Assembly (NCBI GenBank): GCA_028690275.1
Contig: JAQVBN010000001.1
Location: 1-20,955 of the forward strand
Origin: Minisyncoccota bacterium
GTDB taxonomy: Bacteria > Patescibacteriota > Minisyncoccia > Minisyncoccales > Minisyncoccaceae
Direction: 5' to 3'
DNA length: 20,955 nt
The position numbers were made by a program, and so were the translations under genes. Below are positions 1 to 15,734 of the stretch, in pieces. Within the stretch, counting starts at the first letter, position 1; every line of letters begins with the position of its first letter. The notes below the pieces were generated by a model. It did not search any database. It saw only the letters and a program-made list of their open reading frames with translations, and was not told the DNA's origin.

Positions 1-150
1 GAATGTTTTGGTGGAGCCAAGTGTATTGCTAATGCATACTTTAAAGATCCTTTTGCCCCAGATCCTCAATGTTGGAGATTGTTTAAAGAGCTTCCTAGCC
101 AAGAAGAAAAGTTTGAGAAAGATAATAAAAAAGAAACAAGAATTTTTTAA
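1..150 (+). CDS. C-terminal end of a radical SAM/SPASM maturase (5' part outside window)
   Basis: The frame is open from the first base and ends at TAA 148-150, giving 49 residues. It carries the last part of a SPASM auxiliary-cluster region (ECFGGAKC, then a further Cys in DPQCWRLF). The first 42 codons are identical, in the same phase, to the end of the complete gene at 2791-3822, so this is the 3' end of a second copy of that enzyme. After the shared DNA the ending differs: seven extra residues (KKETRIF) replace the single Ile of the complete copy. The family presumably binds iron-sulfur clusters and modifies a peptide. The next gene starts three bases after this stop, where the other copy is followed by a TPR gene, so the downstream neighbour was changed by rearrangement. 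Confidence 0.85.
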   Translation, partial: ECFGGAKCIANAYFKDPFAPDPQCWRLFKELPSQEEKFEKDNKKETRIF

Positions 151-152
151 TC

Positions 153-1052
153 ATGAAAACACTCGATATAAAAACAGGATTTCAATGCAATAATCAATGT
201 CAATTTTGTATACAGGGAGATAAAAGAAATTTTAAAAAGACAAAAAGCACGGAAGAAATCAAGCAAATATTAAAACAAAATTGCGATAATTTCGGAAAAT
301 TAGTATTTACTGGAGGGGAAGTGACAATTAGGGAAGATATTTTAGAAATAGTAAAATATGCTAAAGACTTAGGGTATAAAATAATACAAATTCAAACCAA
401 CGGAAGAATGTTTTCTTATTTTGATTTTTGTAAAAAATTGATTGATGCAGGAGTTACAGAGTTCGGATTATCAATACATGGTTCGACTCCGGAAATTCAT
501 GATGGTTTAACTAGGGCGGTTGGAAGTTTTGAGCAAACACTTCAAGGTATTCTTAATTTAAAAAAATTACAACAACCTGTTTTAATTAATTCGGTTGTTA
601 CAAGAATTAATTATAAAGATGCTCCCAATATAGCAAGAATATTATCAGATATAGGTGTTAAAAGCTATCAATTTGCTTTTATGCATATTAATTCTATTAT
701 TTTAAATAATGATGAAACGATAGAAAAAATAGTTCCTAGATATAAAGAAATTAAGCCTTTTGTAGAAGAAGGGCTTCAAATAGGAATTGATGCCAATGTT
801 AAATCAAGAGTAGAAACTATCCCATTTTGTATTTTACAAGAAAAATATTATAACAATATTTCACCGGATTATTTAAGAGAATCTTTTATTTATGAAGATG
901 ATAAATTAAAAGATTTTAGAAAAATGAAAAAAGACGGAGCTAAGTTAAAGGGGGAGAGATGTAGGGAGTGTAAATTTTTTGAACAATGTGAAGGGCCATG
1001 GAGCGATTATGTTAAGACTTTTGGCTTTGATGAATTTAAACCAATTAAATGA
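153..1052 (+). CDS. Radical SAM enzyme, ~300-aa tandem family, copy a
   Basis: A 299-residue radical SAM protein. The cluster motif CxxxCxFC (C12, C16, C19) binds the SAM-cleaving [4Fe-4S] cluster, and a TGGEVTIR segment matches the GGE motif for SAM binding. A Cys in the segment IPFCIL plus a C-terminal CxxCxxxxxC group ending in EGPWSDY could hold one auxiliary cluster (twitch-like rather than full SPASM). It lies in the same broad group as peptide-maturing radical SAM enzymes of Hxs loci, but I could not assign it to HxsC. It starts 3 bases after the upstream SPASM gene and overlaps the next radical SAM gene by ATGA. Three stretches of 63-68 bp are identical in DNA to the copies at 5053 and 5949, while sequence between them differs. 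The substrate is inferred to be one of the HxsA-like precursors. Confidence 0.9.
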   Translation: MKTLDIKTGFQCNNQCQFCIQGDKRNFKKTKSTEEIKQILKQNCDNFGKLVFTGGEVTIREDILEIVKYAKDLGYKIIQIQTNGRMFSYFDFCKKLIDAGVTEFGLSIHGSTPEIHDGLTRAVGSFEQTLQGILNLKKLQQPVLINSVVTRINYKDAPNIARILSDIGVKSYQFAFMHINSIILNNDETIEKIVPRYKEIKPFVEEGLQIGIDANVKSRVETIPFCILQEKYYNNISPDYLRESFIYEDDKLKDFRKMKKDGAKLKGERCRECKFFEQCEGPWSDYVKTFGFDEFKPIK

Positions 1053-1945
1053 AAGAACTTGATATAAAATTAGGTTATAATTGTAATAATAATTGTTTGT
1101 TCTGTCTAAATAAAGATAAGAGAGGTTTTGGTTATGCAACAGAAGAATTAAAAAAACAAATAGAGATATCCGCCAATAATGGTTGTAAAAAATTGATTAT
1201 TTCGGGTGGAGAACCTTTGATTTATAATAATTTTTTTGAGATTGTTAAATTTGCTAGAGAGAGGGGGATTCCTAATTATCAAATTCAAACAAACGGAAGA
1301 ATGCTTTTTTATGGTGAAATGGTTGAAAGAATAAAAAGAATTTGCCCAAATGTTGATTTTTTAGTTTCTTTTCATTATCCAAATGCAGAAATGTATAAAA
1401 AATATTCTCAAGTAGATGGCTTTAATCAGGTTTTGGAGGGTTTGAAAAATCTTCAAAAGCATAGTTTAAAATTTACAACTAACACTGTTTTGTTCAAAGA
1501 AAATATTAAATTTTTAAATGAAATTTTAAGCACATTATCAAAAGTTGACTGCAAGTATAGTCAATTTAGATTTATTGATGGACACAATGTAGGTGATGAT
1601 TTTTTTGATTTTGTTCCTAGAATGGAGGAAGCGGTATCGGAAATAAAAAAAGTGATTTTTAATTATCCTGAGTTAAAAATATATATTCATGAAATACCTG
1701 CTTGTGTTCTAGGAAGAGATTTGGAAGATTATATTACTTCTATGCCTAATATAGAAAGAGAAAACTTTAATTTAAAAAAAGAAGTTTTAACTTCTCCAGA
1801 AATTGTCAGACAACAATTTATTTATCCTAATTGTGATGGTTGTATGAATAAAATGAGGTGTTTAGGTGTTAGAAAAAGTTATTTGAAATTTTTTGACAAA
1901 AAAGAATTTAATCCTATTATTAGTAAATTAGAAAATTATGATTAA
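1049..1945 (+). CDS. Radical SAM enzyme, divergent member of the tandem family, copy b
   Basis: A 298-residue radical SAM protein with CxxxCxFC at C12, C16, C19, followed by LNKDKRGF, and a SGGEPLI segment. The C-terminal group is C-x2-C-x5-C (CDGCMNKMRCLGV), and an internal Cys in IPACVLG could complete an auxiliary cluster, as in its neighbours. It keeps the IQTNGRM segment of copy a, but the central part differs strongly: a SFHYPNAEMY segment replaces the SIHGSTPEIHDGLTR motif of the others. It is therefore the outlier of the six and may have a different substrate or reaction. It overlaps copy a by four bases and the following 62-residue gene by eight, so the three are probably translationally coupled. 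Function as a RiPP maturase is inferred from context. Confidence 0.88.
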   Translation: MKELDIKLGYNCNNNCLFCLNKDKRGFGYATEELKKQIEISANNGCKKLIISGGEPLIYNNFFEIVKFARERGIPNYQIQTNGRMLFYGEMVERIKRICPNVDFLVSFHYPNAEMYKKYSQVDGFNQVLEGLKNLQKHSLKFTTNTVLFKENIKFLNEILSTLSKVDCKYSQFRFIDGHNVGDDFFDFVPRMEEAVSEIKKVIFNYPELKIYIHEIPACVLGRDLEDYITSMPNIERENFNLKKEVLTSPEIVRQQFIYPNCDGCMNKMRCLGVRKSYLKFFDKKEFNPIISKLENYD

Positions 1946-2126
1946 AGATTATATCGTTACTTATAGAAGTAGGGAACATTACGAAGTTTTGGGTTGGTTG
2001 AGAGCAGAATCTTTAGAAGATGCGAAAAGTATGGTTAATAATAAGTTTAAGGATCAAATTAAAAAATATGGAGTTGTGGATGCTATGATTGCAGAGTGGG
2101 GAAATTCTGACAATATTCATTTATAA
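1938..2126 (+). CDS. Small conserved protein (62 aa), paralogue of 13713-13901
   Basis: I do not recognise this family. The protein has 62 residues and aligns without gaps to the 62-residue product at 13713-13901, with 29 identical positions. Shared segments are a beta-like IVxY, SREHxEVLGW, an acidic helix with EAK, QIxKY, and a closing DAxIAEW. The pattern of two strand-helix units suggests a small alpha/beta domain, with no membrane segment and no Cys. The start ATG overlaps the end of the radical SAM gene by eight bases. Both copies sit next to a pair of radical SAM genes, so it could be a precursor-recognition or enzyme-partner protein; this is inference. Conservation in both copies argues for a real gene despite its size. 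Confidence 0.8.
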   Translation: MIKDYIVTYRSREHYEVLGWLRAESLEDAKSMVNNKFKDQIKKYGVVDAMIAEWGNSDNIHL

Positions 2127-2158: not shown

Positions 2159-2186
2159 ATATTTAATTTAGTGTTTATAAAATTAT

Positions 2187-2747
2187 ATGGCAAATAAATT
2201 ACCAAAAATAAAAAAAGATCTAAATGATTTTTTAACTCAAGAAGAAGGAAGTATTGATAAAAAGAACGCTGCTAATTTAGCCATTACTGCAGTTGTTTTA
2301 GGCGCGGCTTTTTATGGAGCATCAGCCGATGCACATAATAGTTATTTGCTTAATGATGTTGATGCTGGCAAGCATTCTTCTTCCGATGGAACACATTCTG
2401 TACCCAATCATGCAAGCAATCTTTTGAACACAGAGGAAAGCGGTTTACATAATTCTCATACTTCTTGTCACGCAAGTCATTTTTCCTGTTCTCATAGTTC
2501 CCATGAATCTTGCCATGGTTCATGTCATGATGATCATAGTTCGTGTCATTGTTCTTGTGCTCATGGGTCTTCCACAGATTGTAATTGTCATTTTAGTACA
2601 CCTGATTATGATAGTGGCTCTCCATATTGTGACTACAACGATCATAGTAATTGCCACTGTTCTTGTGATCATGGCTCTCATGAATCTTGCCATAGTTCAT
2701 GTCATACTAACCATAGTAATTGTAGTCATTCTAATTCGGCAACATAA
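2187..2747 (+). CDS. hxsA: HxsA-like precursor peptide with Cys/His/Ser-rich repeat core
   Basis: A 186-residue precursor. Residues 1-27 are a charged, presumably cytosolic leader (DFLTQEEGSIDKK at 14-26). Residues 28-46 are a hydrophobic segment ending in A47-D48-A49|H50, a plausible signal peptidase I site. HxS motifs begin exactly there (H50-N-S, H63-S-S, H70-S, H88-N-S, H91-T-S). From residue 94 to the end the core is dominated by Cys, His and Ser with units such as HESCHGSCH and HSSCHCSC; I count 16 Cys, all after residue 93. Residues 1-93 align without gaps to the precursor at 11841, whose core is entirely different. His-Xaa-Ser repeats and the HxsB/HxsD genes nearby support the HxsA name. 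The product could be a crosslinked or metal-binding surface peptide; this is inference. It has its own promoter and is followed 43 bases later by a SPASM maturase. Confidence 0.8.
   Translation: MANKLPKIKKDLNDFLTQEEGSIDKKNAANLAITAVVLGAAFYGASADAHNSYLLNDVDAGKHSSSDGTHSVPNHASNLLNTEESGLHNSHTSCHASHFSCSHSSHESCHGSCHDDHSSCHCSCAHGSSTDCNCHFSTPDYDSGSPYCDYNDHSNCHCSCDHGSHESCHSSCHTNHSNCSHSNSAT
2466..2744 (+). repeat. Irregular Cys/His/Ser repeat region in the first precursor core
   Basis: This part encodes residues 94-186. Units of three residues such as HSS, HES, HGS alternate with SCH steps. At DNA level 2502-2528 and 2679-2705 are a 27-base direct repeat with one mismatch, so part of the core arose by internal duplication. 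Confidence 0.7.
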
Positions 2748-2778: not shown

Positions 2779-2805
2779 TTGTAAGTAAGAATGTTTCACT
2801 TACAA
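2779..2805 (+). promoter_or_regulatory. Stem-loop enclosing the start codon of the SPASM maturase
   Basis: TTGTAAGT at 2779-2786 and ACTTACAA at 2798-2805 form a perfect 8-bp stem with an 11-base loop. The ATG at 2791-2793 lies in the loop. In a transcript reading through from the precursor gene this could lower translation of the enzyme relative to the precursor. No function is proven and an 8-bp stem can occur by chance. Confidence 0.4.
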
Positions 2806-3822
2806 TGGCACATAACCGAAAGATGCAATCTTTGTTGTACTCATTGCTACAAAGAAGAGAAATTAATTAAAGAAGAGATATCTACCTCTCAAGTTTTTGA
2901 AATCTTAGGAAAGTATTACGACCAATTAGATGCTTGGAATTTTGATAAAAGTAATAACAAAATATCTTTAACGGGTGGAGAGCCTTTTATTCGAGAAGAT
3001 ATTTGGGATATTTTAGAAAATTGTTATCAACACAGAGAAAAGATTACCTATGGTTTTCTTTCTAATGGTACTTTAATTACCGAAGAAGTAGCTTCTAAAT
3101 TAAAAGATCTTCATGTTGCATACGTTCAAGTTAGCTTGGAAGGATTACAAGAGATTAATGATCAGATTAGGGGTAGAGGTTCTTTTGAAAAAGCTATTCG
3201 AGGATTAAAGTTTTTAATTAAAAATAATATTTCTACTAGTATCTCTACAACCGTTACTACCAAAAATCTTAACGAAGTTCCTAAATTAATTAATCTTACC
3301 AAGGAACTTGGAGTTTCGGGAATAGGTATTAGAAGATTGGTTCCAATTGGAATGGGAAAAAAGATGGAAAATCTAATGATTACTCCACAACAGACCAGAG
3401 AGTTGTTTCAATATGTTTTGGGGAAGAATAAGAGAAATATTGGGGTTGGCTGCGAAAAAGGATTGTTCGCACAAGAAGGACGTAGTGTTGGAGGATTCTG
3501 TTGTACAGGATATAACACTCTTTCTGTCTTACCCAACGCCGATGTCTATCCCTGCAGAAGACTACCAATATTATCAGGCAATCTTCTTAAAGATAATTTT
3601 GAAGATATTTTAAAGAATAGCAAACCACTAAGAGAACTTAGGAATTTGAACAATATAAACAAAAAATGTCAGTCTTGTCCATATTTTAACGAATGTTTTG
3701 GTGGAGCCAAGTGTATTGCTAATGCATACTTTAAAGATCCTTTTGCCCCAGATCCTCAATGTTGGAGATTGTTTAAAGAGCTTCCTAGCCAAGAAGAAAA
3801 GTTTGAGAAAGATAATATATGA
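2791..3822 (+). CDS. Radical SAM/SPASM peptide maturase
   Basis: A 343-residue protein. The N-terminus FHLQWHITERCNL leads into CxxxCxxC (C12, C16, C19), and TGGEPFI is the GGE motif. The C-terminal third is Cys-rich (a GFCCTG pair, VYPCRRL, CQSCPYFNECFGG and later C residues), the layout of a SPASM domain carrying two auxiliary [4Fe-4S] clusters, as in thioether- or C-C-forming RiPP maturases. It directly follows the Cys-rich precursor at 2187, its likely substrate. The ATG lies in a hairpin loop. The stop overlaps the next gene's start (ATGA). The last 126 bases of the coding part recur at 1-126. By eye its codons are somewhat richer in G and C than those of the surrounding radical SAM genes. 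I could not assign it to a named subfamily; similarity to the ACGX-system enzymes is an impression only. Confidence 0.92.
   Translation: MFHLQWHITERCNLCCTHCYKEEKLIKEEISTSQVFEILGKYYDQLDAWNFDKSNNKISLTGGEPFIREDIWDILENCYQHREKITYGFLSNGTLITEEVASKLKDLHVAYVQVSLEGLQEINDQIRGRGSFEKAIRGLKFLIKNNISTSISTTVTTKNLNEVPKLINLTKELGVSGIGIRRLVPIGMGKKMENLMITPQQTRELFQYVLGKNKRNIGVGCEKGLFAQEGRSVGGFCCTGYNTLSVLPNADVYPCRRLPILSGNLLKDNFEDILKNSKPLRELRNLNNINKKCQSCPYFNECFGGAKCIANAYFKDPFAPDPQCWRLFKELPSQEEKFEKDNI
3691..3817 (+). repeat. Direct repeat, second copy of the sequence at 1-127
   Basis: Bases 3691-3817 are identical by eye to 1-127, in the same strand and reading frame. The left copy runs off the window edge, so the true repeat is longer. 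The two copies diverge just before the stop codon. Confidence 0.95.
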
Positions 3823-5066
3823 TTAAAATAATTTTATTCGTTTTATTTCTATTTGTAGGTTTTATTTTTTTTAAAGAATTTAAGAATTACAAAAAAAAAG
3901 CTCTTCAGAGAGCGACAGATTCTTTCGAAAAAGGAGATATAGAAAAAACAGAAAAAATTTATAAAAATTTAATTAAGAAAAAATCTCCTGATTATATTCA
4001 AGCTATGGATAGATTGGGGAGGTTTTATTATTATAGAAAAAAATACAAAAAGGCGAAGAAGGTTTTTGAGGATTTGTATGAATTAAAACTTAAAAAAAAT
4101 AATGCCACTTCAAGTGCCGTCAATTATTTATCTTTAATTGCCAACAAGCAGGGCGATTATGATTTGGCAATTGAGTATATAATAAGGTTTGAGGAATTAG
4201 GAACAGGAGATTTTATTTTAAAATCAAACGCTTCTTCAAGTAGTGCTTTTTTAATATTGTCGAGATGTTATTTAAAGAAAGGAGATATCGAAAAATCAGA
4301 AACATATCTTGAAAAATATTTTTCGATGCATGCTGAACAGATGGAGGCGGGGTTTAAACAACAAGGAGAGAATTTTTTAGAATTAGCCGAGTACGATAAG
4401 GCAAAAAAGTGTTTTGAAAAAATAAATAAGAAAAATTTAGTAAAAACAGAGCAAAGCGAACTGAGTCATCTTTTGTCAATGGCGCTTTTAGGGAAAAAAG
4501 ACTACAAAAATATTTTAGAAATGGATAGAAATAATTCTTTTTTGATGGATAATAAAAGTAGTCTATTTTTTTCTATTTATAGCACGGCTATAGCTTACAT
4601 AAAGACTGGAAAGTTTGAAGAGGCTAAAAAGAAATTAAATTTATGTTTTGAGTTGGTGGTGTTTATGGATTTGAATAATTTTTACAATTTTTACAATTTT
4701 AGTCTTTTAAGACATTATTCCTTGGGAATTTTAAATTCTTATGAAAAAAAATACAAAGAAGCAGAAGATTGTTTTAAAAGAAACATTGAAATAATAGAAA
4801 AAATTCCTGAGATAAGATATAAATATTTTATGGAAAAAATTAATATTATTTTTTTAAAGCTTTTATCTTTATATGAATTAGCCAGAATAAATTGGTCTAA
4901 AAAAGATCCTTCAAAAGCAAAACAATATATATTTCTAGCTATTAATTTAATTGAAGCATTAAAAATAGAAGAAAAGAAAATAATTGAGTTAAAAGAGGTT
5001 GGAAATGAGGGTTCTATTATAAAAAAAATTAATAATTTAAATTTAGAAATTAATGAAAAAACTTGA
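3819..5066 (+). CDS. Membrane-anchored TPR-repeat protein
   Basis: A 415-residue protein. Residues 2-18 (MIKIILFVLFLFVGFIFF region) form one membrane anchor, followed by a Lys-rich stretch and helical tetratricopeptide-like repeats, visible as recurring segments such as GRFYYYRKKYKKAKKVFEDL, QGDYDLAIEYI and KKGDIEKSETYLEKYF. The C-terminus carries LKEVGNEGSIIKKINNLN, conserved in the paralogue at 12467. The repeats probably form a scaffold for peptide or enzyme binding on the cytosolic face; the orientation is inferred. The start overlaps the SPASM gene by ATGA, and the 3' end overlaps the next radical SAM gene by 14 bases. The same position, after a precursor or maturase and before paired radical SAM genes, is used by the second copy, so it is probably part of the peptide system. 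Confidence 0.85.
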   Translation: MIKIILFVLFLFVGFIFFKEFKNYKKKALQRATDSFEKGDIEKTEKIYKNLIKKKSPDYIQAMDRLGRFYYYRKKYKKAKKVFEDLYELKLKKNNATSSAVNYLSLIANKQGDYDLAIEYIIRFEELGTGDFILKSNASSSSAFLILSRCYLKKGDIEKSETYLEKYFSMHAEQMEAGFKQQGENFLELAEYDKAKKCFEKINKKNLVKTEQSELSHLLSMALLGKKDYKNILEMDRNNSFLMDNKSSLFFSIYSTAIAYIKTGKFEEAKKKLNLCFELVVFMDLNNFYNFYNFSLLRHYSLGILNSYEKKYKEAEDCFKRNIEIIEKIPEIRYKYFMEKINIIFLKLLSLYELARINWSKKDPSKAKQYIFLAINLIEALKIEEKKIIELKEVGNEGSIIKKINNLNLEINEKT

Positions 5067-5952
5067 TATTAAATTAGGTTATACTTGTAATAATTTGTGT
5101 AAATTTTGTATACAGGGCAATAAAAGAGATCTTAAGGACTCTCAAACAACAAGTGAGGTAAAGAAAACTTTATTAGAGAATAGTTTTAATTTTAAAGAAG
5201 TGGTTTTTACTGGTGGGGAGGTAACGATTAGAAATGATATTTTCGAATTGGTTAAATTTGCAAAAGAATGTGGATACAAAACAATAAGAATTCAAACTAA
5301 CGGAAGAATTTTTTCATATTTTGATTTTTGTCAAAAAATAATTGATGCTGGAGCGAATGAATTCATGCCATCTATTCATGGTTCAACCCCAGAAATTCAT
5401 GATGGTTTAACTAGGGCGGTTGGAAGTTTTGAGCAAACACTTCAAGGTATTCTTAATTTGAAAAAATTGCAACAAGGTGTTTTTATCAATACAGTGGTAA
5501 CAAGAATCAATTACAAAGATATGCCTAATATTGCAAAAATGTTATCTGATATTAAAGTGAATAGTTACCAATTTGCTTTTATGCATATTAATTCTAGTAT
5601 TCAAAAAGATATAAAATTAGTTGAAGAAATAGTTCCTAGATATAAAGAAATTAAGCCTTTTGTAGAAGAAGGGCTTCAAATAGGAATTGATGCTAACGTT
5701 AAATCAAAAGCAGAAGCTTTCCCTTTTTGTACATTAAATGAAAAATATCATGCTCATATTTCTGAAAATTATATGCCAAATGTTTTTATTTATGAAGATA
5801 AAAAACTTTCTAATTTTAATCAAATGAAAAAAGACGGAGCTAAGTTAAAGGGGGAGAGATGTAGGGAGTGTAAATTTTTTGAACGATGCGAAGGTCCATG
5901 GAGTGACTATCCTAGAATTTTTGGCTTTAATGAATTTAAACCAATTAAATGA
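5053..5952 (+). CDS. Radical SAM enzyme, ~300-aa tandem family, copy c
   Basis: A 299-residue radical SAM protein with CxxxCxFC at C12, C16, C19, FTGGEVTIR as the SAM-binding GGE segment, and an internal FPFCTL plus C-terminal CRECKFFERC for a probable auxiliary cluster. The start was chosen because MKKLDIKLGYTCNN matches the N-termini of the sister copies; it overlaps the end of the TPR gene by 14 bases. The 3' half (5509-5940) is identical in DNA to that of the next gene, while the first half differs between residues about 27 and 50 and again around 95-155. The two stand as a pair, overlapping by ATGA. Variation confined to some segments may mean different substrate positions; this is inference. 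Confidence 0.9.
   Translation: MKKLDIKLGYTCNNLCKFCIQGNKRDLKDSQTTSEVKKTLLENSFNFKEVVFTGGEVTIRNDIFELVKFAKECGYKTIRIQTNGRIFSYFDFCQKIIDAGANEFMPSIHGSTPEIHDGLTRAVGSFEQTLQGILNLKKLQQGVFINTVVTRINYKDMPNIAKMLSDIKVNSYQFAFMHINSSIQKDIKLVEEIVPRYKEIKPFVEEGLQIGIDANVKSKAEAFPFCTLNEKYHAHISENYMPNVFIYEDKKLSNFNQMKKDGAKLKGERCRECKFFERCEGPWSDYPRIFGFNEFKPIK
5509..5940 (+). repeat. 432-bp exact direct repeat, copy 1 (copy 2 at 6405-6836)
   Basis: Line-by-line comparison shows no difference between 5509-5940 and 6405-6836, a constant offset of 896 bases. It covers the 3' half of two adjacent radical SAM genes. An identical stretch also starts at the 5' end (from 5071 against 5967, about 60 bases). This indicates recent tandem duplication followed by divergence or gene conversion. 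Confidence 0.93.
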
Positions 5953-6851
5953 AAATTTTAGATATAAAATTAGGTTATACTTGTAATAATTTGTGTAAAT
6001 TTTGTATACAGGGCAATAAAAGAGATCTTTATGAGAATCAATCCAAGGAAGAGATTAAAAAAATAACTAAGCAAGGCTCTGGAAAATACGAAAGGATAGT
6101 TTTTACTGGTGGAGAGGTAACGATTAGAAATGATATTTTCGAATTGGTTAAATTTGCAAAAGAATGTGGATATAAAACAATAGCTATTCAAAGTAATGGT
6201 AGGATGTTTTCATATTTTGATTTTTGTCAGAAAATAATTGATGCGGGGGCTGATAATTTTACTTTAGCTATTCATGGTTCAACCCCAGAAATTCATGATG
6301 GTTTAACTAGGGCGGTTGGAAGTTTTGAGCAAACACTTCAAGGTATTCTTAATTTGAAGAAATTAAGACAAAAGATTTATACCAACACCGTTGTAACAAG
6401 AATTAATTACAAAGATATGCCTAATATTGCAAAAATGTTATCTGATATTAAAGTGAATAGTTACCAATTTGCTTTTATGCATATTAATTCTAGTATTCAA
6501 AAAGATATAAAATTAGTTGAAGAAATAGTTCCTAGATATAAAGAAATTAAGCCTTTTGTAGAAGAAGGGCTTCAAATAGGAATTGATGCTAACGTTAAAT
6601 CAAAAGCAGAAGCTTTCCCTTTTTGTACATTAAATGAAAAATATCATGCTCATATTTCTGAAAATTATATGCCAAATGTTTTTATTTATGAAGATAAAAA
6701 ACTTTCTAATTTTAATCAAATGAAAAAAGACGGAGCTAAGTTAAAGGGGGAGAGATGTAGGGAGTGTAAATTTTTTGAACGATGCGAAGGTCCATGGAGT
6801 GACTATCCTAGAATTTTTGGCTTTAATGAATTTAAAATAATTAAGAGATAA
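5949..6851 (+). CDS. Radical SAM enzyme, ~300-aa tandem family, copy d
   Basis: A 300-residue radical SAM protein with C12, C16, C19 in CxxxCxFC, FTGGEVTIR, and the same C-terminal CRECKFFERCEGPW cluster group as copy c. From residue about 153 to near the end it is identical to copy c, including the DNA, but residues about 27-50, the IQSNGRMF region and DNFTLAIHG differ. The C-terminus ends EFKIIKR rather than EFKPIK. It overlaps copy c by four bases and is followed two bases later by the A24 peptidase gene, so all are likely one transcript. A maturase role on the HxsA-like precursors is inferred from context. Confidence 0.9.
   Translation: MKILDIKLGYTCNNLCKFCIQGNKRDLYENQSKEEIKKITKQGSGKYERIVFTGGEVTIRNDIFELVKFAKECGYKTIAIQSNGRMFSYFDFCQKIIDAGADNFTLAIHGSTPEIHDGLTRAVGSFEQTLQGILNLKKLRQKIYTNTVVTRINYKDMPNIAKMLSDIKVNSYQFAFMHINSSIQKDIKLVEEIVPRYKEIKPFVEEGLQIGIDANVKSKAEAFPFCTLNEKYHAHISENYMPNVFIYEDKKLSNFNQMKKDGAKLKGERCRECKFFERCEGPWSDYPRIFGFNEFKIIKR
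6405..6836 (+). repeat. 432-bp exact direct repeat, copy 2 (copy 1 at 5509-5940)
   Basis: Second copy of the exact repeat covering the 3' half of the adjacent radical SAM gene. Confidence 0.93.
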
Positions 6852-9748: not shown

Positions 9749-10195
9749 ATGGAAACTAAAACAATAACAATAGATACAAATATATATTCTCTAAGGGCAG
9801 TATTAAGTACAGCTTATGTTTTTTTAAATGATTACTACTTTTTTTTAAATCAACCAGAAGAAGGAAAAATAAAAATCGATATAAAACCAAAAGAGGAGGG
9901 TACTAGTTTAGATAAAATAGAGGGGGAGTTTAATAATGAACTTATTAATGTTGGTTTGAGACAAAAAGTTTTTGAAGAAAATAGAAAGGTTAGGGAAATG
10001 ATAGTTAATATTGCTCTTAATGGAATAGATAAGAACAGTGTTGTTGAAGAGAGGCCTTTTTGTCAAAATGATCCAGATGGTATTTCAAAGAGGTGGGAGG
10101 ATAGTGTCTCCAATACGCACATAGCAATAGAAAAACCTAAAGGAGTTAATTTTTCTGCTAATTTTGTTAAAAATAAAGAAAAAAATGGAAATTAA
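9749..10195 (+). CDS. hxsD: HxsD-type His-Xaa-Ser system protein
   Basis: A 148-residue protein. The start at 9749 is preferred over an upstream in-frame ATG at 9695, because the latter lies inside the secreted protein gene and adds 18 unrelated residues. Segments IYSLRAVLSTAYVFLNDYYF (about 12-31), GEFNNELINVGLRQ (59-72) and ENRKVREMIVNIAL (77-90) match the pattern I recall for HxsD, a small cytosolic partner of HxsB with no known enzymatic motif. The C-terminal 58 residues (EERPFCQNDPDG onward) extend beyond the usual domain. A role in precursor binding or maturase assembly is inferred. It begins one base after the secreted protein gene and overlaps a second, shorter relative by 11 bases. 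Confidence 0.8.
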   Translation: METKTITIDTNIYSLRAVLSTAYVFLNDYYFFLNQPEEGKIKIDIKPKEEGTSLDKIEGEFNNELINVGLRQKVFEENRKVREMIVNIALNGIDKNSVVEERPFCQNDPDGISKRWEDSVSNTHIAIEKPKGVNFSANFVKNKEKNGN

Positions 10196-10391
10196 ATTTG
10201 ATAAAAATATTTATAATAAAAAAGCTCTTGAAAACACAATTCAGGCCTACAAAGAATTGGCAAACATAGAATTTTCAGAAGTAGATAATTTTTATATTGT
10301 AGCAATGAGTAACGTAGATGAAGAGGTAAAAGATTTGATCGGGGATGAGTTTTGTAATTATTTGTTGTTTGAAACGGTAAAATGTCTTTAG
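10185..10391 (+). CDS. Short HxsD-like protein
   Basis: A 68-residue protein starting at the ATG at 10185, which overlaps the end of hxsD by 11 bases; an upstream ATG at 10164 would add seven Lys-rich residues. MEIKFDKNIYNKKALENTIQAY at the start parallels the N-terminus of hxsD (ITIDTNIYSLRAVLSTAY), and DEFCNYLLFETVK parallels GEFNNELINVGLR. It therefore looks like a compact second HxsD-type subunit lacking the helical tail after that motif. It overlaps the second hxsB by 10 bases, which suggests coupled translation and a partner role for that enzyme. Confidence 0.65.
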   Translation: MEIKFDKNIYNKKALENTIQAYKELANIEFSEVDNFYIVAMSNVDEEVKDLIGDEFCNYLLFETVKCL

Positions 10392-11830
10392 ATTTAAGTA
10401 AAATAAAAATAGATAAAGAAACGGTTGGTTTTTTTAGATTTAAAAAATTAAACAATTTTTTTTTACTAACAAATGATATTGCATATATTAAATTAAGCGA
10501 AAAAGATTTTAAAGATTTCCTTGAAGGAAAATTAGATAAAAATGGGGATAGTTTTAAAGAATTAGCAGAAAGAGGCTTTATTAAAAACTTTCTTCCTATA
10601 AATAAAATGGTTCGCATTTATCGTAAAAAAAGCGATTTTCTTTTTCGTAAAGGAACCTCTTTACATATAATAGTGGTTACAAAAAGATGCAATCATCTTT
10701 GTATATATTGTCAGGCGGGAAGTCCAGAGCTTCAAGATCCTGTATATGACATGACAGAGGAAACTGCAAGAAAAACAGTAGATTTAATTTTTCAAGGATC
10801 TAATCCTAATATAACTATTGAATTTCAAGGAGGAGAACCTTTAATAAATTGGAATGTTGTTAAATTTATTATTAATTATACGAGAGAAAAAGAAAAAAAG
10901 TCGAATAAAAAAGTTCATTTTGGAATTGCTACAAATTTATCTTTAATGACTGATGAAATTTGTAAATTTTTAGTTGATAATGATGTCGGCATTTCAACAT
11001 CTCTCGATGGACCAGAACACATTCATAATAGAAATAGGCCATTTAATGATCCTAATGGAAGTTATCAAATAGTTGATAGATGGTTAAAAAAAATAAAAAA
11101 TTATTTTAAAGAAAATAAGAAGAGGGGCGCTGGTGGAGCGCTACCCACACTTACCAAATACTCACTTGAACACATAGAAGAAATTGTTGATGAGTATGTT
11201 AGACAAGGAATAGCGTCGATACATTTTAGACAACTTAGTTATCTTGGAAAATCTGCAGGAAAAGAAAAAAAAGAAGAGTTTGGATATACAGCAGAAGAGT
11301 TTATCGCTGCATGGAAGAGGGGTATGGATTATATAATACAAAAGAATAAGGAAGGTTTTTTAATAACGGAGAGAATGGCAGTAACAATTTTAGCGAGAAT
11401 TTTAAAAGATAGGTCAGTTTCTTATTTAGATTTTAGAAGTCCTTGTGGTTTAGGAATAGGAATGTTATCTTATTTTTATAATGGCAATATTTATTCTTGT
11501 GAGGTGGGAAGATTGTCTGGCGATGAAGTTTTTCTCTTGGGAACAGTTGATGATTCTTACGAAAATATTATGGAAAGGAAAAAAATGGAATCTTTCGTAG
11601 AAGCTTCTGTTTTAGATGCTAGTCCTTGTGATGAATGTGTTTATAAACCATATTGTGGGATTTGTCCAGCCTCTAATTATGCTTTATATGGAAATTTTAC
11701 GCCAAACATAAAAATAACAGATAAGTGTAAAATTAGCGAAGCGCAAATAGATTATCTTTTTTTAAAAATGGAAGATGAAGAAGTTTTAAATATTTTTAAC
11801 AAATGGCTAGAAAGATGTAAAAATAATTAA
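10382..11830 (+). CDS. hxsB: HxsB-type radical SAM/SPASM maturase, copy 2
   Basis: A 482-residue paralogue of the gene at 7863. The N-terminal PqqD-like part (VGFFRFKKLNNFFLLTND, KDFLEGKL, LAERGFIKN) is conserved, followed by VTKRCNHLCIYCQA with C103, C107, C110, FQGGEPLINW, and a SPASM region with CGLGIGML, IYSCEVG, CDECVYKPYCGICP and TDKCKI. Compared with copy 1 it has a small insertion around residues 218-250 (FNDPNGSYQ through KENKKRGAGG). It sits directly in front of the Trp-rich precursor (10 bases), its likely substrate. This is the only hxsB touching both hxsD genes and a precursor, so this block is closest to a minimal Hxs system. Confidence 0.88.
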   Translation: MSLDLSKIKIDKETVGFFRFKKLNNFFLLTNDIAYIKLSEKDFKDFLEGKLDKNGDSFKELAERGFIKNFLPINKMVRIYRKKSDFLFRKGTSLHIIVVTKRCNHLCIYCQAGSPELQDPVYDMTEETARKTVDLIFQGSNPNITIEFQGGEPLINWNVVKFIINYTREKEKKSNKKVHFGIATNLSLMTDEICKFLVDNDVGISTSLDGPEHIHNRNRPFNDPNGSYQIVDRWLKKIKNYFKENKKRGAGGALPTLTKYSLEHIEEIVDEYVRQGIASIHFRQLSYLGKSAGKEKKEEFGYTAEEFIAAWKRGMDYIIQKNKEGFLITERMAVTILARILKDRSVSYLDFRSPCGLGIGMLSYFYNGNIYSCEVGRLSGDEVFLLGTVDDSYENIMERKKMESFVEASVLDASPCDECVYKPYCGICPASNYALYGNFTPNIKITDKCKISEAQIDYLFLKMEDEEVLNIFNKWLERCKNN

Positions 11831-11840
11831 CATCAATTAT

Positions 11841-12461
11841 ATGAATAATAAATTTCCAAAAATAAAAAAAAATATTAGTGATTTTTTAACCCAAGAAGAA
11901 GGAAGCATTGATAAAAAGAATGCTGCTAATTTAGCTATTACAGCAGTTGTTTTAGGAGCAGCTCTTTATGGGGTGACCGCTGATGCTCATAACAGTTTTT
12001 TGTTAAATGATGATCTTGTTGGCAAACATTCATCTTTTAATGGAACACATTCTGTTTTAAATCATACAAGTAATTTAATAAATGATATTAATCAAGGTAA
12101 TCATAATTCTCACACTTCTGTACCTTGGAGTGATTGGAGTGATTGGAGTGATTGGGATAATTGGGATGACTGGAGTAATTGGAGCGATACTATTTCATGG
12201 AGTGATGCTTGGAGTGATTGGAGTAATACTTGGAGTGATTGGAGTAATTGGAGTGATTGGAGTGATGCTTATGTAGACTTATGGAGTGATGTCCATTGGG
12301 ATAATGGAGATCATAATGTAACATGGGGAGATTATACTGATGGTTATAATGATTGGGGCTTTATTTATAGTGATCATGTAGATCAATATAGTGATGCAAA
12401 TCCTACTTGGGTTGATCTTCATTCAGATAATGCCTATGATGATTGGTGGACTTTGTGGTAA
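11841..12461 (+). CDS. hxsA: HxsA-like precursor peptide with Trp-Ser-Asp triad core
   Basis: A 206-residue precursor. Residues 1-93 align without gaps to the precursor at 2187: leader DFLTQEEGSIDKKN, hydrophobic residues 28-46, A47-D48-A49|H50, and the HxS motifs at 50, 63, 70, 88 and 91. From W96 the core is a run of WSD, WSN, WDN and WDD triads, then looser repeats with Tyr and His (YSDHVDQYSD, VDLHSD) ending in WWTLW. I count 22 Trp and no Cys. The three-residue step of the His-Xaa-Ser family is kept but His is replaced by Trp and Ser by Asp or Asn. Enzymes that form three-residue cyclophanes are known to act on aromatic-X-X triads; whether that happens here is inference. It follows hxsB by 10 bases, with no clear promoter of its own. 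Confidence 0.8.
   Translation: MNNKFPKIKKNISDFLTQEEGSIDKKNAANLAITAVVLGAALYGVTADAHNSFLLNDDLVGKHSSFNGTHSVLNHTSNLINDINQGNHNSHTSVPWSDWSDWSDWDNWDDWSNWSDTISWSDAWSDWSNTWSDWSNWSDWSDAYVDLWSDVHWDNGDHNVTWGDYTDGYNDWGFIYSDHVDQYSDANPTWVDLHSDNAYDDWWTLW
12126..12266 (+). repeat. Tandem 9-base repeat coding for Trp-Ser-Asp
   Basis: The unit TGGAGTGAT (Trp-Ser-Asp) recurs in frame, three times in a row from 12126 and again near 12228-12266, mixed with TGGAGTAAT and TGGGATAAT variants. The units share almost the same codons, which favours expansion by slippage or unequal recombination. Confidence 0.92.
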
Positions 12462-12466: not shown

Positions 12467-13708
12467 ATGATAAAGATAATTCTTTTTACACTCATCTTAA
12501 TTATTGTTTTTATTGTTTTTAGAGATTTTAATTTTTTTTTAAAAGAAGTTGAAAAATTTATTATAAAAATTAAAAATTTTTTTAATAAAAAAAAAGAAGA
12601 TAATTATGAAAAACATTATCTAGCGATTCTTAAAAATAAAAATAAAAATAATAATTTTACTCAAAACCTAAATAGATTATGTGAATTTTATATTTCGCAA
12701 GGCAGATACGAAGAAGCTGTTTTGATGTATGAAAAAATGTTGAGAAGAGGGGATTTGCAGTATAATATGTTTTGGAATTCTTTGGCAGGATTTGGATCTA
12801 TAGCAGAAAAAAGAGGAGATTTTAATTTAGCTATAGAATATGTTAAAAAAGGAGAGGACATGAGAAAACATTTTTCCCACAAAGAATCTTCTGATTATTT
12901 TGAAAAAGTTTATTTTATTTTATCTAATTGTTATTTGAAAATAGGAGATAAAAAAAAATCTCTAGACTACTTAAGAAGCTTTCTTAAAAAAAATTTAGAA
13001 GAAAGATCTAGGTTAAAAATTTTTTTAAAGATGGGGGAAAATCTTTTGGAGTTTTTTGATTATAAAAATGCTAAAAAATATTTTGAAAGAAAAGAGCTTG
13101 AAGTGTTAAATAGTGACCAAAAAAATAAAAGAGATTATTTATTGTGTATGTCTTTACTTGGAATGAGAGATTATGATTCTATTTTAGAAATTGGAAAAAG
13201 AAAAGATTTTTTTCAAAGTGGTAGTGATCTTTTAATTTTAGGACTTTATAGCTTAGGCATATCAAATGTTAAGAAAAATTTTTTTAATGAGGCTGAAAAG
13301 TGTTTTAGTGTAATTTTCCCCATAACAACTTTTCGTTTAGATATTAAAGATTTTTATAAATTTTATTATTATAATTTATTATTATATTATGGGTTAGGGC
13401 TTCTTAATAATGTCAAAAAAGAATACGATAAGGCAGAAATAAATTTTCAAAAGATGTTAGAAATTATAGAAAGGATTCCTCCGATAAGATATCAATATTT
13501 TTTAGAAAGAACTAATATATATTTTTTTAAAATTTTAGCAAATTTTGAATTGATAAAAATAGAAAAAAATATCAAAAAAAAGAAAGAAAAAATTAAAATA
13601 TTAAAATCTTTTTTAGATCAATTAACGACAGAAGAGAGGTCTTTAATAGGATTGAAAGAAATTGGAAATGAAGGTTCTATAATTAATAAGATTAATAATT
13701 ATAAATAA
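12467..13708 (+). CDS. Membrane-anchored TPR-repeat protein, paralogue of 3819-5066
   Basis: A 413-residue protein. I chose the ATG at 12467 because MIKIILFTLILI matches the start of the paralogue at 3819; an in-frame ATG at 12443 lies inside the precursor gene. Residues 2-18 are a membrane anchor. TPR-like repeats follow (ISQGRYEEAVLMYEKML, KRGDFNLAIEYVKKGEDM, KIGDKKKSLDYLRSF, KKEYDKAEINFQKMLEIIERIP), and the tail LKEIGNEGSIINKINN is conserved with the first copy. It lies five bases after the Trp-rich precursor and four before the 62-residue gene. Pairing of each precursor block with one copy suggests that each TPR protein serves a particular peptide, perhaps as membrane docking site for enzyme or product. 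Confidence 0.85.
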   Translation: MIKIILFTLILIIVFIVFRDFNFFLKEVEKFIIKIKNFFNKKKEDNYEKHYLAILKNKNKNNNFTQNLNRLCEFYISQGRYEEAVLMYEKMLRRGDLQYNMFWNSLAGFGSIAEKRGDFNLAIEYVKKGEDMRKHFSHKESSDYFEKVYFILSNCYLKIGDKKKSLDYLRSFLKKNLEERSRLKIFLKMGENLLEFFDYKNAKKYFERKELEVLNSDQKNKRDYLLCMSLLGMRDYDSILEIGKRKDFFQSGSDLLILGLYSLGISNVKKNFFNEAEKCFSVIFPITTFRLDIKDFYKFYYYNLLLYYGLGLLNNVKKEYDKAEINFQKMLEIIERIPPIRYQYFLERTNIYFFKILANFELIKIEKNIKKKKEKIKILKSFLDQLTTEERSLIGLKEIGNEGSIINKINNYK

Positions 13709-13712
13709 ATTT

Positions 13713-13901
13713 ATGGAAAAATATTTTATTGTTATTTATAAGAGTAGAGAGCATTTTGAGGTTTTAGGGTGGGAAAAGGCTGTTACGAGTGAAGAAGCAA
13801 AAAAAAGATTTGAAACTGGCCATGCTTCTCAAATAGAAAAGTATAAAATTAAAGATGCTGTAATTGCTGAATGGAAAGAGCCGGAAGACATTCAATTTTA
13901 G
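13713..13901 (+). CDS. Small conserved protein (62 aa), paralogue of 1938-2126
   Basis: An unrecognised 62-residue protein with the same length and 29 of 62 positions identical to the product at 1938. The conserved parts are IVxY, SREHFEVLGW, an EAK helix, QIEKY and DAVIAEW. It starts four bases after the TPR gene and ends five bases before a radical SAM gene. The first copy follows a radical SAM pair, this one precedes a pair. Its consistent link to these enzymes suggests an accessory protein of the maturation machinery. Confidence 0.8.
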   Translation: MEKYFIVIYKSREHFEVLGWEKAVTSEEAKKRFETGHASQIEKYKIKDAVIAEWKEPEDIQF

Positions 13902-13906
13902 TTATT

Positions 13907-14815
13907 ATGGCAAAAACAAGTGTTATAAAAACAGGTTTTCAGTGTAATAATAATTGCATTTTTTGCATACAAGACAATAGCAGATATACAAAAAAGACAC
14001 AATCGACCGAAGAAGTTAAAAAAATATTAAAAGAAAATGTTAAGACATCAAAAGAAATTGTTTTGACTGGTGGAGAAGTAACGATTAGAGGTGATATTTT
14101 TGAATTGGTTAAATTTGCAAAAGAATGTGGATATGAAAGTATCCAAGTTCAGTCAAATGGAAGAATGTTTTCTTACATGGATTTTTGTGAAAAATTAATT
14201 AATGTTGGAGCTAATGAATTTGGAATTTCTATTCATGGTTCGACTTCAGAAATTCATGATAAATTAATAAGGGTGGAGGGCGGTTTTAAACAAGTTTATA
14301 AGGGGTTAAATAATTTAAAAGAATTAAAACAAAAAATATGTACCAACACGGTTGTTACAAAAATAAATTATAAGGATTTGCCTAACATTACTAAGATATT
14401 AATTGATTTTAATGTTTTTGAACATAATTTTACTTTTTTATATTTAAATTTTAATATTATGAAAGATAAAAAATTAATTGAAGAAATTGCTCCCAAGTAT
14501 GTTGATGTCAGGAAATATATTGAAAAATGTCTTAGAATGGGGATAGAAGCTAAGATAAAGATAAGAACAGAGGCTTTCCCTTTTTGTGTATTGGGAAAAA
14601 AATATCATCATTTTATTAAAGCTTTATGTGTTCCAGATAATATAGTTTATGAAAATGATATCATTTTTGATTTTAAGGGAAAAAATATAAAAAGTGATAT
14701 AGGCAAAAAAAAATTTGAAAAATGCAAACAGTGTAAATTTTATGATGTTTGTGAGGGGCCATGGATAAGTTATGGTAAGATTTTTGGAGAAGAAGAATTT
14801 AAACCAATAAATTAA
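13907..14815 (+). CDS. Radical SAM enzyme, ~300-aa tandem family, copy e
   Basis: A 302-residue radical SAM protein. The start at 13907 (MAKTSVIKTGFQC) matches the sister copies; an in-frame ATG at 13871 would lie within the preceding 62-residue gene. CxxxCxFC is at C13, C17, C20, with LTGGEVTIRGD as GGE segment. The C-terminal CKQCKFYDVCEGPW group and an internal FPFCVL could hold an auxiliary cluster. It keeps SIHGSTSEIHD but has RVEGGFKQVYKGL in place of the usual RAVGSFEQTLQGI, so it is among the more diverged copies. Residues coded at 14716-14765 are identical in DNA to 15635-15684 in the next gene. It forms a pair with that gene, four bases apart. Confidence 0.88.
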   Translation: MAKTSVIKTGFQCNNNCIFCIQDNSRYTKKTQSTEEVKKILKENVKTSKEIVLTGGEVTIRGDIFELVKFAKECGYESIQVQSNGRMFSYMDFCEKLINVGANEFGISIHGSTSEIHDKLIRVEGGFKQVYKGLNNLKELKQKICTNTVVTKINYKDLPNITKILIDFNVFEHNFTFLYLNFNIMKDKKLIEEIAPKYVDVRKYIEKCLRMGIEAKIKIRTEAFPFCVLGKKYHHFIKALCVPDNIVYENDIIFDFKGKNIKSDIGKKKFEKCKQCKFYDVCEGPWISYGKIFGEEEFKPIN

Positions 14816-14819
14816 AATT

Positions 14820-15734
14820 ATGAATAAAAAAAACAATACCACTATTGATATAAAAACAGGTTTTCAGTGTAATAATAATTGTAAGTTTTGTGCACAAGGG
14901 AATCAACGTAATTTTAGGAATAATTTTTCGACAGAACAAATCAAAAAAATATTAATTGAGAATAAGACAATCTTTGATAATGTTGTTTTAACTGGAGGGG
15001 AGATTACTATTAGAAGTGATTTTTTAGAGTTGGTTAAATTTGCAAAAAATTGTAACTATAAAAATATATTTATTCAATCAAATGGAAGAATGTTTTCTTA
15101 TGTTGATCTTTGTGAAAAAGTTGCTGAGATTGGAGTTAATAATTTTTATTTATCCTTGCATGGTTCAACTCCAGAAATTCATGATGGGCTAACTAGAGTG
15201 GCTGGAAGTTTTGAGCAAACCATAAAAGGGATTAAAAATTTAATAAATCTCGGACAAAAAGTTTCTACAAATACAGTCGTTACAAAAATAAATTACATGG
15301 ATATGCCAAATGTGGCCGAATTGTTATCAAAATTAAATGTTTTTAGTTTTCAGTTTTCTTTTATGGATATAAATTCAGTTATTGAAAAGAATAAAGAGGA
15401 AATAGATATTATAGTTCCTAGATATAAGGATGTTAAAGAAAGTGTTGAAAAAGGATTACAGATTGGATTGGATTTTAATTCTAAATGTAAAACAGAATCT
15501 TTTCCATTTTGTAGTTTATCAAGGAAATATTATGATTGCATTCCTTTCAAAAGAATGGAAGATTATTTTGTTAGAGATGGAGAGAGAACGCAAAACATGA
15601 CAGAAATTAGAAAGAATAAATTAAAAAAACAAGGTGAAAAATGCAAACAGTGTAAATTTTATGATGTTTGTGAGGGGCCATGGAGTAATTATGTCAATAT
15701 TTTTGGATTCGATGAGTTCAATCCAATAATATAA
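14820..15734 (+). CDS. Radical SAM enzyme, ~300-aa tandem family, copy f
   Basis: A 304-residue radical SAM protein with CxxxCxFC at C17, C21, C24, LTGGEITIR, SLHGSTPEIHDGLTR and the C-terminal CKQCKFYDVCEGPW group. The extra N-terminal residues (NKKNNTT) make it slightly longer than its sisters. It is the last gene of the island: its TAA ends at 15734, directly touching the recG stop on the other strand, with no terminator visible in between. It shares an exact 50-base block with copy e in the cluster-binding tail and shorter near-identical stretches with copies a, c and d in the HDGLTR-to-GSFEQT region. Confidence 0.88.
   Translation: MNKKNNTTIDIKTGFQCNNNCKFCAQGNQRNFRNNFSTEQIKKILIENKTIFDNVVLTGGEITIRSDFLELVKFAKNCNYKNIFIQSNGRMFSYVDLCEKVAEIGVNNFYLSLHGSTPEIHDGLTRVAGSFEQTIKGIKNLINLGQKVSTNTVVTKINYMDMPNVAELLSKLNVFSFQFSFMDINSVIEKNKEEIDIIVPRYKDVKESVEKGLQIGLDFNSKCKTESFPFCSLSRKYYDCIPFKRMEDYFVRDGERTQNMTEIRKNKLKKQGEKCKQCKFYDVCEGPWSNYVNIFGFDEFNPII

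Follow-up and report, generated by a model that had tools for sequence, protein, structure and literature searches.

We analysed a 20,955-nucleotide stretch of DNA (the window), which is the whole of contig C69 from the genome of a Minisyncoccota bacterium; the assembly has 523,799 bases in 73 contigs and is 90% complete. Positions 153 to 15734 hold 19 genes, all on the + strand. Neighbouring genes overlap by 14 nt at most and are spaced by 61 nt at most, so the set looks like one operon. A sequence-only reading of this DNA had listed two precursor peptides, two HxsB, two HxsD-type proteins, a SPASM-domain radical S-adenosylmethionine (radical SAM) enzyme, six smaller radical SAM enzymes, two TPR proteins, two 62-residue proteins, and an A24 peptidase on one strand, and all of these are present as open frames (Table 1). 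Judging by family membership and gene order, the island is a real, duplicated Hxs (His-Xaa-Ser) operon of the HxsA4/HxsC4 sort, and its host lineage is probably Paceibacterota. What appears to be new here is the pair of precursors, A1 and A2, which combine one leader with two types of core: H-x-S(-C) in A1 and W/Y/H-x-D/N in A2.

Both HxsB proteins pass TIGR03978 in NCBIfam, HxsD passes TIGR03976, and the HxsD-like protein passes NF038315; the sequence-only reading had proposed the HxsB and HxsD families for the genes that begin at 7863, 10382, and 9749. The HxsD-like protein also matches the HxsD family model at 22 bits, so the two are related and might form a pair. The six HxsC-like radical SAM enzymes (about 300 amino acids each) match NF038332 (HxsC4) best, at 82.8-169.5 bits, which does not reach the cut-off of 500. 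Their second-best family is TIGR03977 (HxsC), at 73-109 bits, under the cut-off of 267.9. All six have CxxxCxxC and four further invariant Cys in common.

The genes for HxsB, the precursor, the TPR protein, the 62-residue protein (p62), and the HxsC-like enzyme are all duplicated, which bears out the modularity that had been noticed earlier. In a tree of 83 HxsB proteins, the window's two copies are sisters (support 99/60, which is below the mark for firm support), and together with the HxsB of a member of the same genus (G005) they form a three-row group with support of 100/100. The two copies are 59% identical over 463 columns. Given sister copies at this identity, the duplication appears to be lineage-specific and not recent, although the tree does not firmly place it before or after the divergence of the genus mate. 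G005 has one HxsB, on the 15,933-base contig C65, where the gene order is orf141-HxsD-HxsD-like-HxsB-SPASM-precursor-TPR-HxsC-like. The right half of the island repeats this order minus the SPASM gene: orf141-HxsD-HxsD-like-HxsB_b-A2-TPR_b-p62_b-HxsC-like e-f. The left half runs HxsC-like a-b-p62_a-A1-SPASM-TPR_a-HxsC-like c-d-A24-HxsB_a.

A1 and A2 are identical at 70 of their first 92 residues, and at 41 of 49 within the leader, and differ after that. The leader in the window reads [LF]PKIKK-x5-FLTQEEGSIDKK and is followed by a hydrophobic stretch and then an A-x-A site. Both proteins had been described as HxsA-like. They match HxsA3 weakly (20.9 and 36.7 bits; cut-off 65), which was the only HxsA family matched at E up to 1, and neither precursor passes any of those tested (TIGR03979, NF038296, NF038309, and NF038313). 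The core of A2 has gone from a His-Ser to a Trp-Ser-Asp type. The A1 core (137 residues) contains 24 His and 16 Cys, with 18 H-x-S against 5.9 in shuffled sequences (0/2000 shuffles reach this count), 9 H-x-S-C against 0.7 expected, and no C-x-x-C. The A2 core (157 residues) contains 22 Trp, 10 His, no Cys, and only 5 H-x-S. In other words, A1 has the His-Xaa-Ser repeat that gives Hxs its name, and A2 lacks it. A2 instead has 13 W-S-D/N (1.0 expected; 0/2000 shuffles).

Aromatic residues in A2 tend to be followed, two positions later, by D or N. In the repeat region this is true of 27 of 32 aromatics (shuffle mean 10.1; 0/5000 shuffles reach it). The tail of the core is degenerate and has lost the tandem repeat, yet 13 of its 18 aromatics keep the rule (0/10,000 shuffles), in the units YVD, WSD, HWD, WDN, WGD, YTD, YND, YSD, HVD, YSD, WVD, HSD, and YDD; the number with D/N at -1 falls to 5. 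Because the +2 rule survives in the tail while the -1 signal drops, it is not merely a consequence of the tandem repeat, and the tail is the cleanest test of it. A protein search with A2 found seven relatives at E 0.01: A1, two proteins of the His/Cys type, and four with Trp/Tyr cores (P0001 to P0004). D/N lies at +2 of 19/23, 18/24, 16/21, and 11/15 aromatics in these four, respectively, which 0/5000 shuffles reached in each case. Pooled with A2, this comes to 91 of 115 aromatics. The middle residues vary (S, D, V, L, F, N, and others). P0003 is labelled as 'Candidatus ainarchaeum sp.' and P0004 as 'Proteiniphilum sp.'; we take these labels with caution because both are from metagenome bins.

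To find the leader elsewhere, we used a profile built from 24 precursors of other loci plus A1 and A2 (one further chosen row was skipped). The profile recovered its own members, so part of its hits is by construction. At E < 1e-7 it found 69 open reading frames (ORFs), which are the window's two and 67 from other loci. A2 alone among the 69 has more than one W-x-D/N, and none of the other 68 keeps the Trp/Tyr rule. A search with A2 of 247 genomes of the order found leader-type precursors in at least 11, which is a lower bound since the search missed the cut precursor of G098. No Trp-type core besides the window's was found among the precursors of these 11 genomes, with cores read as far as available: the precursor of G481 contains masked positions, and in G541 and G098 it is truncated by a contig end or by the edge of the available stretch. 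Within the His-type precursors, the residue at +2 of His (n = 1212, counted over up to 275 residues past the leader and so including some non-core sequence) is S in 977 cases, N in 91, Q in 36, A in 20, H in 18, and D in 17. Four loci (L066, L062, L059, and L114) have cores rich in H-x-N or H-x-D in place of H-x-S. The precursor counts omit L035 and L039, which share contigs with L048 and L046. Some long precursors of the order (L048:12727-14292, L047, L050, L033, L038, L132, L133, and L135) have an extra domain of about 300 amino acids after the H-x-S repeats. This domain has the motif CPF..WNGK....NNILPxSE, and there was no Pfam match for the one precursor tested.

Table 1. Features of the Hxs island in the window (cut-offs are those of the named families).
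Feature	Position	Strand	Remarks
SPASM radical SAM gene, 3' end	1..127	+	exact copy of 3691-3817; contig end
HxsC-like radical SAM enzyme a (class I)	153..1052	+	NF038332 169.5 bits, cut-off 500; CxxxCxxC
HxsC-like radical SAM enzyme b (class II)	1049..1945	+	33% identical to a; NF038332 82.8 bits
p62_a, 62-residue protein	1938..2126	+	47% identical to p62_b; weak S6-like match only
Precursor A1	2187..2747	+	conserved leader; H-x-S(-C) core, 16 Cys
SPASM-domain radical SAM enzyme	2791..3822	+	PF13186 34.8 bits; nearest PDB sequences SkfB, 5wgg
TPR protein a	3819..5066	+	TPR families; N-terminal hydrophobic segment, putative anchor read from sequence
HxsC-like radical SAM enzyme c	5053..5952	+	NF038332 167.5 bits
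HxsC-like radical SAM enzyme d	5949..6851	+	NF038332 154.5 bits; 360 nt of 3' half identical to c
A24 (prepilin-type) aspartic peptidase	6854..7846	+	PF01478 33.2 bits, cut-off 26.5; two conserved Asp
HxsB_a	7863..9260	+	TIGR03978 426.5 bits, cut-off 370
orf141, probable secreted protein	9322..9747	+	kept beside HxsD in genus mate; L046 homologue 117 bits
HxsD	9749..10195	+	TIGR03976 69.1 bits, cut-off 50; fold model
HxsD-like protein	10188..10391	+	NF038315 67.4 bits, cut-off 41
HxsB_b	10382..11830	+	TIGR03978 436.7 bits, cut-off 370
Precursor A2	11841..12461	+	same leader as A1; W/Y/H-x-D/N core, no Cys
TPR protein b	12467..13708	+	TPR families
p62_b, 62-residue protein	13713..13901	+	47% identical to p62_a; model pLDDT 76.7
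HxsC-like radical SAM enzyme e	13913..14815	+	NF038332 152.1 bits
HxsC-like radical SAM enzyme f	14820..15734	+	NF038332 162.1 bits

To see if the gene set recurs, we scanned one genome per species (84,980 species) with tblastn. There were 507 stretches with a relative of HxsB, and we kept the best 80 loci, a list that is ranked by likeness to the query and does not show the whole spread of HxsB. These loci are from Paceibacterota, other Patescibacteria, Omnitrophota, Elusimicrobia, Woesearchaeota, Nanoarchaeota, and one Aenigmatarchaeote, and also from Spirochaetes, one Schekmanbacterium, some Deltaproteobacteria, Myxococcales, and Bdellovibrio. As the sequence-only reading had anticipated, the same genes do recur: at least 61 of the 80 loci have a leader-bearing precursor, 70 an HxsD homologue, 28 an HxsD-like protein, and 33 an A24 homologue, all of which are lower bounds as many contigs are short. 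Within the phylum, HxsB is rare and patchy. It is over the cut-off in 6 of 100 relatives and present at E 1e-60 in 3 of 379 genomes from the phylum (own genome included in both).

The load of radical SAM enzymes had been called striking for a reduced genome. Of the 13 radical SAM domains in its own genome, 9 do sit on the island's contig, but such loads are common in loci of the HxsA4/HxsC4 type. The 33 loci of at least 19 kb hold 1 to 8 radical SAM genes (mode 6), and 18 of the 33 hold six to eight. The island of G036, on a contig of 216 kb, packs 15 into 36 kb. Thus, the window's nine radical SAM genes in 15.7 kb are at the high end of the range and not outside it, and we ruled out an expansion that is unique to this lineage. 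At the level of genomes (E 1e-8), 94 of 99 other related genomes have 11 or fewer radical SAM domains, and five exceed 13: G036 (21), G039 (17), G085 (17), G098 (24), and G060 (31). In G060, contigs C8, C15, and C25 (L043-L045, same order) carry HxsC-like arrays and an A24 homologue, with no HxsB over the cut-off.

The A24 peptidase is, judging by gene neighbourhoods, a recurrent part of this Hxs system in several phyla. The 33 A24 homologues comprise 21 at 40 bits or more and 12 with weaker matches only. In 31 of the 33 loci, no more than 200 nt separate the A24 gene from an Hxs, SPASM, or precursor gene (ORF overlaps of up to 501 nt, counted as negative distances, are included), and in 32 it is on the same strand as that gene. 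For 11 of the 15 loci that make up the tree's DPANN group, the closest gene of these kinds to A24 is hxsD, at 3 to 166 nt. A simple pattern finds the GD motif in 26 of the 33. The window's A24 peptidase keeps both Asp: among 11 aligned sequences, D87 is invariant and D25 is nearly invariant. We found no second A24 match at E 0.001 in its own genome; as this genome is 90% complete, a canonical copy may have been lost from the assembly. An A24 match was found in 9 of 12 genomes searched, and the copy in G005 is away from its Hxs contig.

Prepilin-type peptidases accept G or A before the cut. Every one of the 69 leaders matches E-[EDK]-[GA]-x-[IVMAT]; the third residue is G in 65 and A in 4, these being the only residues that the pattern admitted there. 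Beyond the hydrophobic stretch, 57 of the 69 precursors also match a loose A-x-A pattern. The A24 peptidase may cut the Hxs leader at E-E-G. E-E-G with a hydrophobic stretch after it raised the idea that the precursors are themselves Flp or type IV pilins, but charged residues separate the two, and we kept the motif only as a possible A24 site.

The SPASM enzyme appears to be linked to cysteine in the core. We compiled a table of 65 loci, leaving out L057 (on the same contig as G098) and loci without a precursor. Orthologues of the SPASM enzyme (200 bits or more) are in 7 loci, and in 6 of these the core contains two or more S-C-H or H-x-S-C motifs; only 1 of the 58 loci without a SPASM gene has such a core (Fisher p = 6e-7, kinship ignored). 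Among loci named or placed as Patescibacteria, Cys cores are in 5 of 6 with the SPASM gene and 1 of 9 without (p = 0.011; this set was chosen by hand from record titles and locus labels, and L051, L077, and L090, whose names are unclear and which have 0 Cys motifs each, were left out). G085 and L047 are close by HxsB: G085 has the SPASM gene and six motifs, while L047, whose precursor lies directly after hxsB, has one motif and no SPASM gene in the 14.9 kb examined. In the window, A1 (with Cys) adjoins the SPASM gene and A2 (without Cys) lies in the module that lacks it. If the SPASM enzyme modifies Cys, then it would belong to A1, which would explain its absence from the A2 module. Cores with at least two Cys motifs are confined to 7 of the 65 loci, which rules out a thioether as the general product of these systems.

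An AlphaFold model of HxsD has a beta-alpha-beta-beta-long helix arrangement, with a block-mean predicted local distance difference test (pLDDT) of 93-98 over residues 1-90, and neither Foldseek nor VIA-align found a clear relative of it in PDB. The layout is ferredoxin-like and ends in a long helix, unlike that of a winged-helix (PqqD-like) recognition element, though HxsD may still have such a role. The recognition element may instead reside in the N-terminal part of HxsB, as the HxsB profile matches 5wgg from column 52 only. Both TPR proteins have an N-terminal hydrophobic segment followed by basic residues, which fits with a membrane-held scaffold. The p62 model, built from 8 sequences, has its best PDB match at E 0.61. 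We found no family match for orf141 in NCBIfam or Pfam-type scans of the window's proteins. Its N-terminal motif, W-x-E-P...P-[LI]-N...Q-x-K, is common to the secreted-looking proteins L046, L035:11072-12541, and L044:11018-11956, and these relatives adjoin islands of radical SAM genes in related genomes.

Our best overall reading, to which we give a little less than an even chance, is that the duplicated Hxs operon makes two long, repetitive, exported, crosslinked peptides. Its footing is in the sequences: the membership of HxsB, HxsD, and HxsD-like in their families, the common leader, the duplication, the two core types, the i/i+2 register, and the linkage of A24 to the system. Since both cores have the same geometry, in which an aromatic at i is paired with S, N, or D two positions later, we propose a ring between i and i+2. 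Each aromatic-x-X3 unit would be a substrate of HxsB, with HxsD and HxsD-like as helpers, and of the HxsC-like enzymes. The bond would most likely run from the ring of residue i to the beta carbon of i+2, in the manner of three-residue-cyclophane enzymes. According to the available part of PMC11002830, three-residue cyclophanes pair Trp with Asn, Asp, or Arg; Tyr with Asp or Arg; Phe with Ser or Asn; and His with Ala or Arg. Cross-linked in this way, the core would become a rigid chain of small rings. The SPASM enzyme would modify the Cys of H-x-S-C units, perhaps as thioethers. The A24 peptidase would cut after E-E-G and signal peptidase after A-x-A, with export by Sec, while the TPR proteins would hold the enzymes at the membrane. 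The product would stay at the cell surface or leave it. We favor a structural role over metal binding because Cys is absent from the A2 core and His is scarce there.

We put forward a broader version more tentatively, as a possibility that we would bet against: Hxs systems might make giant poly-cyclophane proteins, in which dozens of consecutive three-residue units are ring-locked from i (His, Trp, or Tyr) to i+2 (Ser, Asn, or Asp), with extra Cys thioethers in some cases and with the leader released by a dedicated A24 peptidase. The window's bacterium would run one His-based and one Trp-based version.

Several observations weigh against these proposals. Among its best 25 NCBIfam families, HxsB_b is closer to the thioether-forming PapB, nif11, and SCIFF families (162, 156, and 133 bits) than to the cyclophane families listed, and it reaches the cut-off of none of the latter: GrrM/OscB (TIGR04261, 62.2 bits, cut-off 310), YhhB (NF041707, 63.2 bits, cut-off 445), and AmcB (NF041718, 49.7 bits, cut-off 425). 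The top NCBIfam matches of the SPASM enzyme are ACGX (160 bits), heme b synthase (159 bits), and mycofactocin (158 bits), and the thioether families PapB (91 bits) and SkfB (74 bits) are lower. As its best matches are not to thioether families, this assignment rests on the link to Cys and on the order of the PDB sequences, where phmmer puts SkfB and 5wgg closest. That link is not perfect either: G098 has the SPASM enzyme and no Cys motif in the part of the precursor that was read (it is cut by the contig end), L050 has Cys motifs and no SPASM enzyme, and the statistics are uncorrected for relatedness. D/N at -1 is nearly as frequent as at +2 in P0001 (18 vs. 19) and P0002 (16 vs. 18), as would follow from full tandem repeats, which give both, and P0001 to P0004 were seen as proteins without gene context. 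A24 is found in under half of the loci, 12 of the 33 matches are weak, and it is not on the incomplete Hxs contig of G005. E-E-G is followed by charged residues, unlike in pilins, and could be a recognition motif, and the count of G and A comes from a pattern that allowed nothing else. With no winged helix in the model of HxsD, its helper role is a guess. Finally, we found no published product, modification, or role of Hxs systems in the open-access literature (subscription papers were mostly outside our search). HxsB is named as a previously annotated enzyme in the available part of PMC9062424, and all four hxs gene names occur in that of PMC8446631.

If there were no cross-link, HxsB-type enzymes might instead work like anaerobic sulfatase-maturating enzymes and oxidise the Ser of H-x-S, for instance to formylglycine. 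At X3 after His, Ser greatly outnumbers every other residue, and the five PDB sequences that the HxsB profile matches below E 1e-20 include 5wgg and two anaerobic sulfatase-maturating enzymes (at about 2e-24 and 3e-24). But A2 and its four homologues have Ser mostly in the middle of the unit and D/N as X3, which Ser oxidation does not explain, even though the leader is kept and HxsB adjoins A2 in the window; four other loci have H-x-N and H-x-D cores. We consider Ser oxidation to be unlikely. A secreted protein that binds zinc, copper, or nickel through His and Cys, with the radical SAM enzymes tuning ligands or acting on few sites, seems about as improbable. The His- and Cys-rich core of A1 and the H-S-S-C-H repeats in several relatives are what one would expect of it, but A2 has the same leader, lies beside HxsB, and has no Cys and just 10 His in 157 residues. 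Also, no metal transporter family was found among the 19 genes of the island, to which that scan was limited.

We give even less weight to two explanations that would make the unusual features accidental. The island's size could be partly a product of assembly, with repeats joined or strains mixed. Sequences 1-127 and 3691-3817, the latter at the end of the SPASM gene, are 100% identical over exactly 127 nt, and HxsC-like c and d share an identical 360-nt stretch in their 3' halves (about 5533-5892 and 6429-6788), with different 5' parts; the latter identity could reflect either gene conversion or an assembly effect. The sequence-only reading took the first stretch as part of a second SPASM enzyme. 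The fragment is there, but it is an exact copy at the contig's end, and 127 is a usual k-mer length of assemblers, so the assembly graph probably ended on a repeat; there may be a second SPASM copy upstream of the contig's start. On the other hand, the HxsB pair is 59% identical, the p62 pair is 47% identical, and the precursor cores are wholly different, which implies that most of the duplication is real. G036 holds its 15 radical SAM genes within one long contig. Also, the window's proteins from 2187-2747 and 13713-13901 are listed in a protein database, where the longest contig given for them has 23,584 bases. As this exceeds the window, a fuller assembly of the island may exist. We think that assembly is a very unlikely explanation for the island's size. 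It is at least as hard to believe that the core of A2 is drift, that is, a functionless 9-nt DNA repeat that expanded in a redundant copy of the gene; we view this as highly improbable. There are indeed tandem repeats of 9 and 21 nt at 12125-12270, and S, D, and N in A2 are encoded mostly by one codon each. But the i/i+2 rule holds outside the tandem part (13/18) and in four homologues with different middle residues, and A2 is an open frame that stands 10 and 5 nt from the adjacent genes.

Compared to known systems, the island looks like a variant of Hxs systems that are known but, as far as we found, uncharacterised. It is most like the HxsA4/HxsC4/HxsD-like systems (NF038313, NF038332, and NF038315) of Elusimicrobiota, Omnitrophota, DPANN archaea, and Patescibacteria, which have the same leader, HxsB, HxsD, and often several HxsC-like radical SAM genes. 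HxsA4 is passed by 2 of 6 leader-bearing precursors that we scanned outside the window, whereas the window's precursors and HxsC-like enzymes are below the cut-offs of the HxsA4/HxsC4-type families. Unlike those systems, the window has two HxsB (only L119 among the 80 loci does likewise, at 250 bits or more), the W/Y-x-D/N core, and the TPR and p62 genes; a SPASM gene is found in few of the loci. It has two precursors with different cores, and L064 and L093 also have two precursors. Three compact Hxs loci on plasmids that we looked at (Nostoc p057_G, Sphingobium pTK1, and Adhaeribacter) combine genes of the hxsD, hxsB, and hxsC types with one for a His-Xaa-Ser repeat protein. In p057_G, hxsA2, hxsD, hxsB, and hxsC are in a row, and the other two plasmids are as compact. 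These loci have one gene of each type, with no A24, TPR, or further radical SAM gene annotated within 5 kb, and their repeat proteins miss the window's leader (profile E of 0.47 or worse). More broadly, a plasmid collection contains 331 records with an HxsB-like match, 304 of them from Klebsiella; all are under 60% identity, and 23 of the 331 cover 80% of the query.

Two further known systems are also close to it. The triceptide enzymes (XncB, OscB, MscB, YxdB, HaaB, and YhhB) likewise act on aromatic-x-X3 units, including Trp-Asn/Asp, Tyr-Asp, Phe-Ser, and His-Ala/Arg in the available part of PMC11002830. The Hxs cores differ in having tens of units almost without spacers, HxsB_b is far below the three cyclophane families, and the Hxs cross-link is a proposal. 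In TvgA/TvgB, as described in the available part of PMC9062424, a radical SAM enzyme likewise modifies a long tandem-repeat core, made of TVGG units. That system differs in its modification (cyclopropylglycine on Val), its precursor, and its gene cluster, which has a putative dioxygenase and transporters.

Hxs genes thus occur in Elusimicrobiota, Omnitrophota, DPANN archaea, bacteria of the candidate phyla radiation, and plasmids. The window's paralogues, with one leader and two cores, suggest which features the enzymes need in common: an aromatic at i together with Ser, Asn, or Asp two positions later. The Trp-core paralogue narrows the possible chemistry of Hxs systems and makes it testable. 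The link between the SPASM enzyme and Cys is a second, separable prediction, and the recurring A24 suggests that prepilin-type peptidases are used outside of pili.

Past the island, 15735-20921 contains a tRNA-Arg gene, two tRNA-Ser genes, and two reverse-strand ORFs that read like RecG and glutamyl-tRNA synthetase (named by eye).

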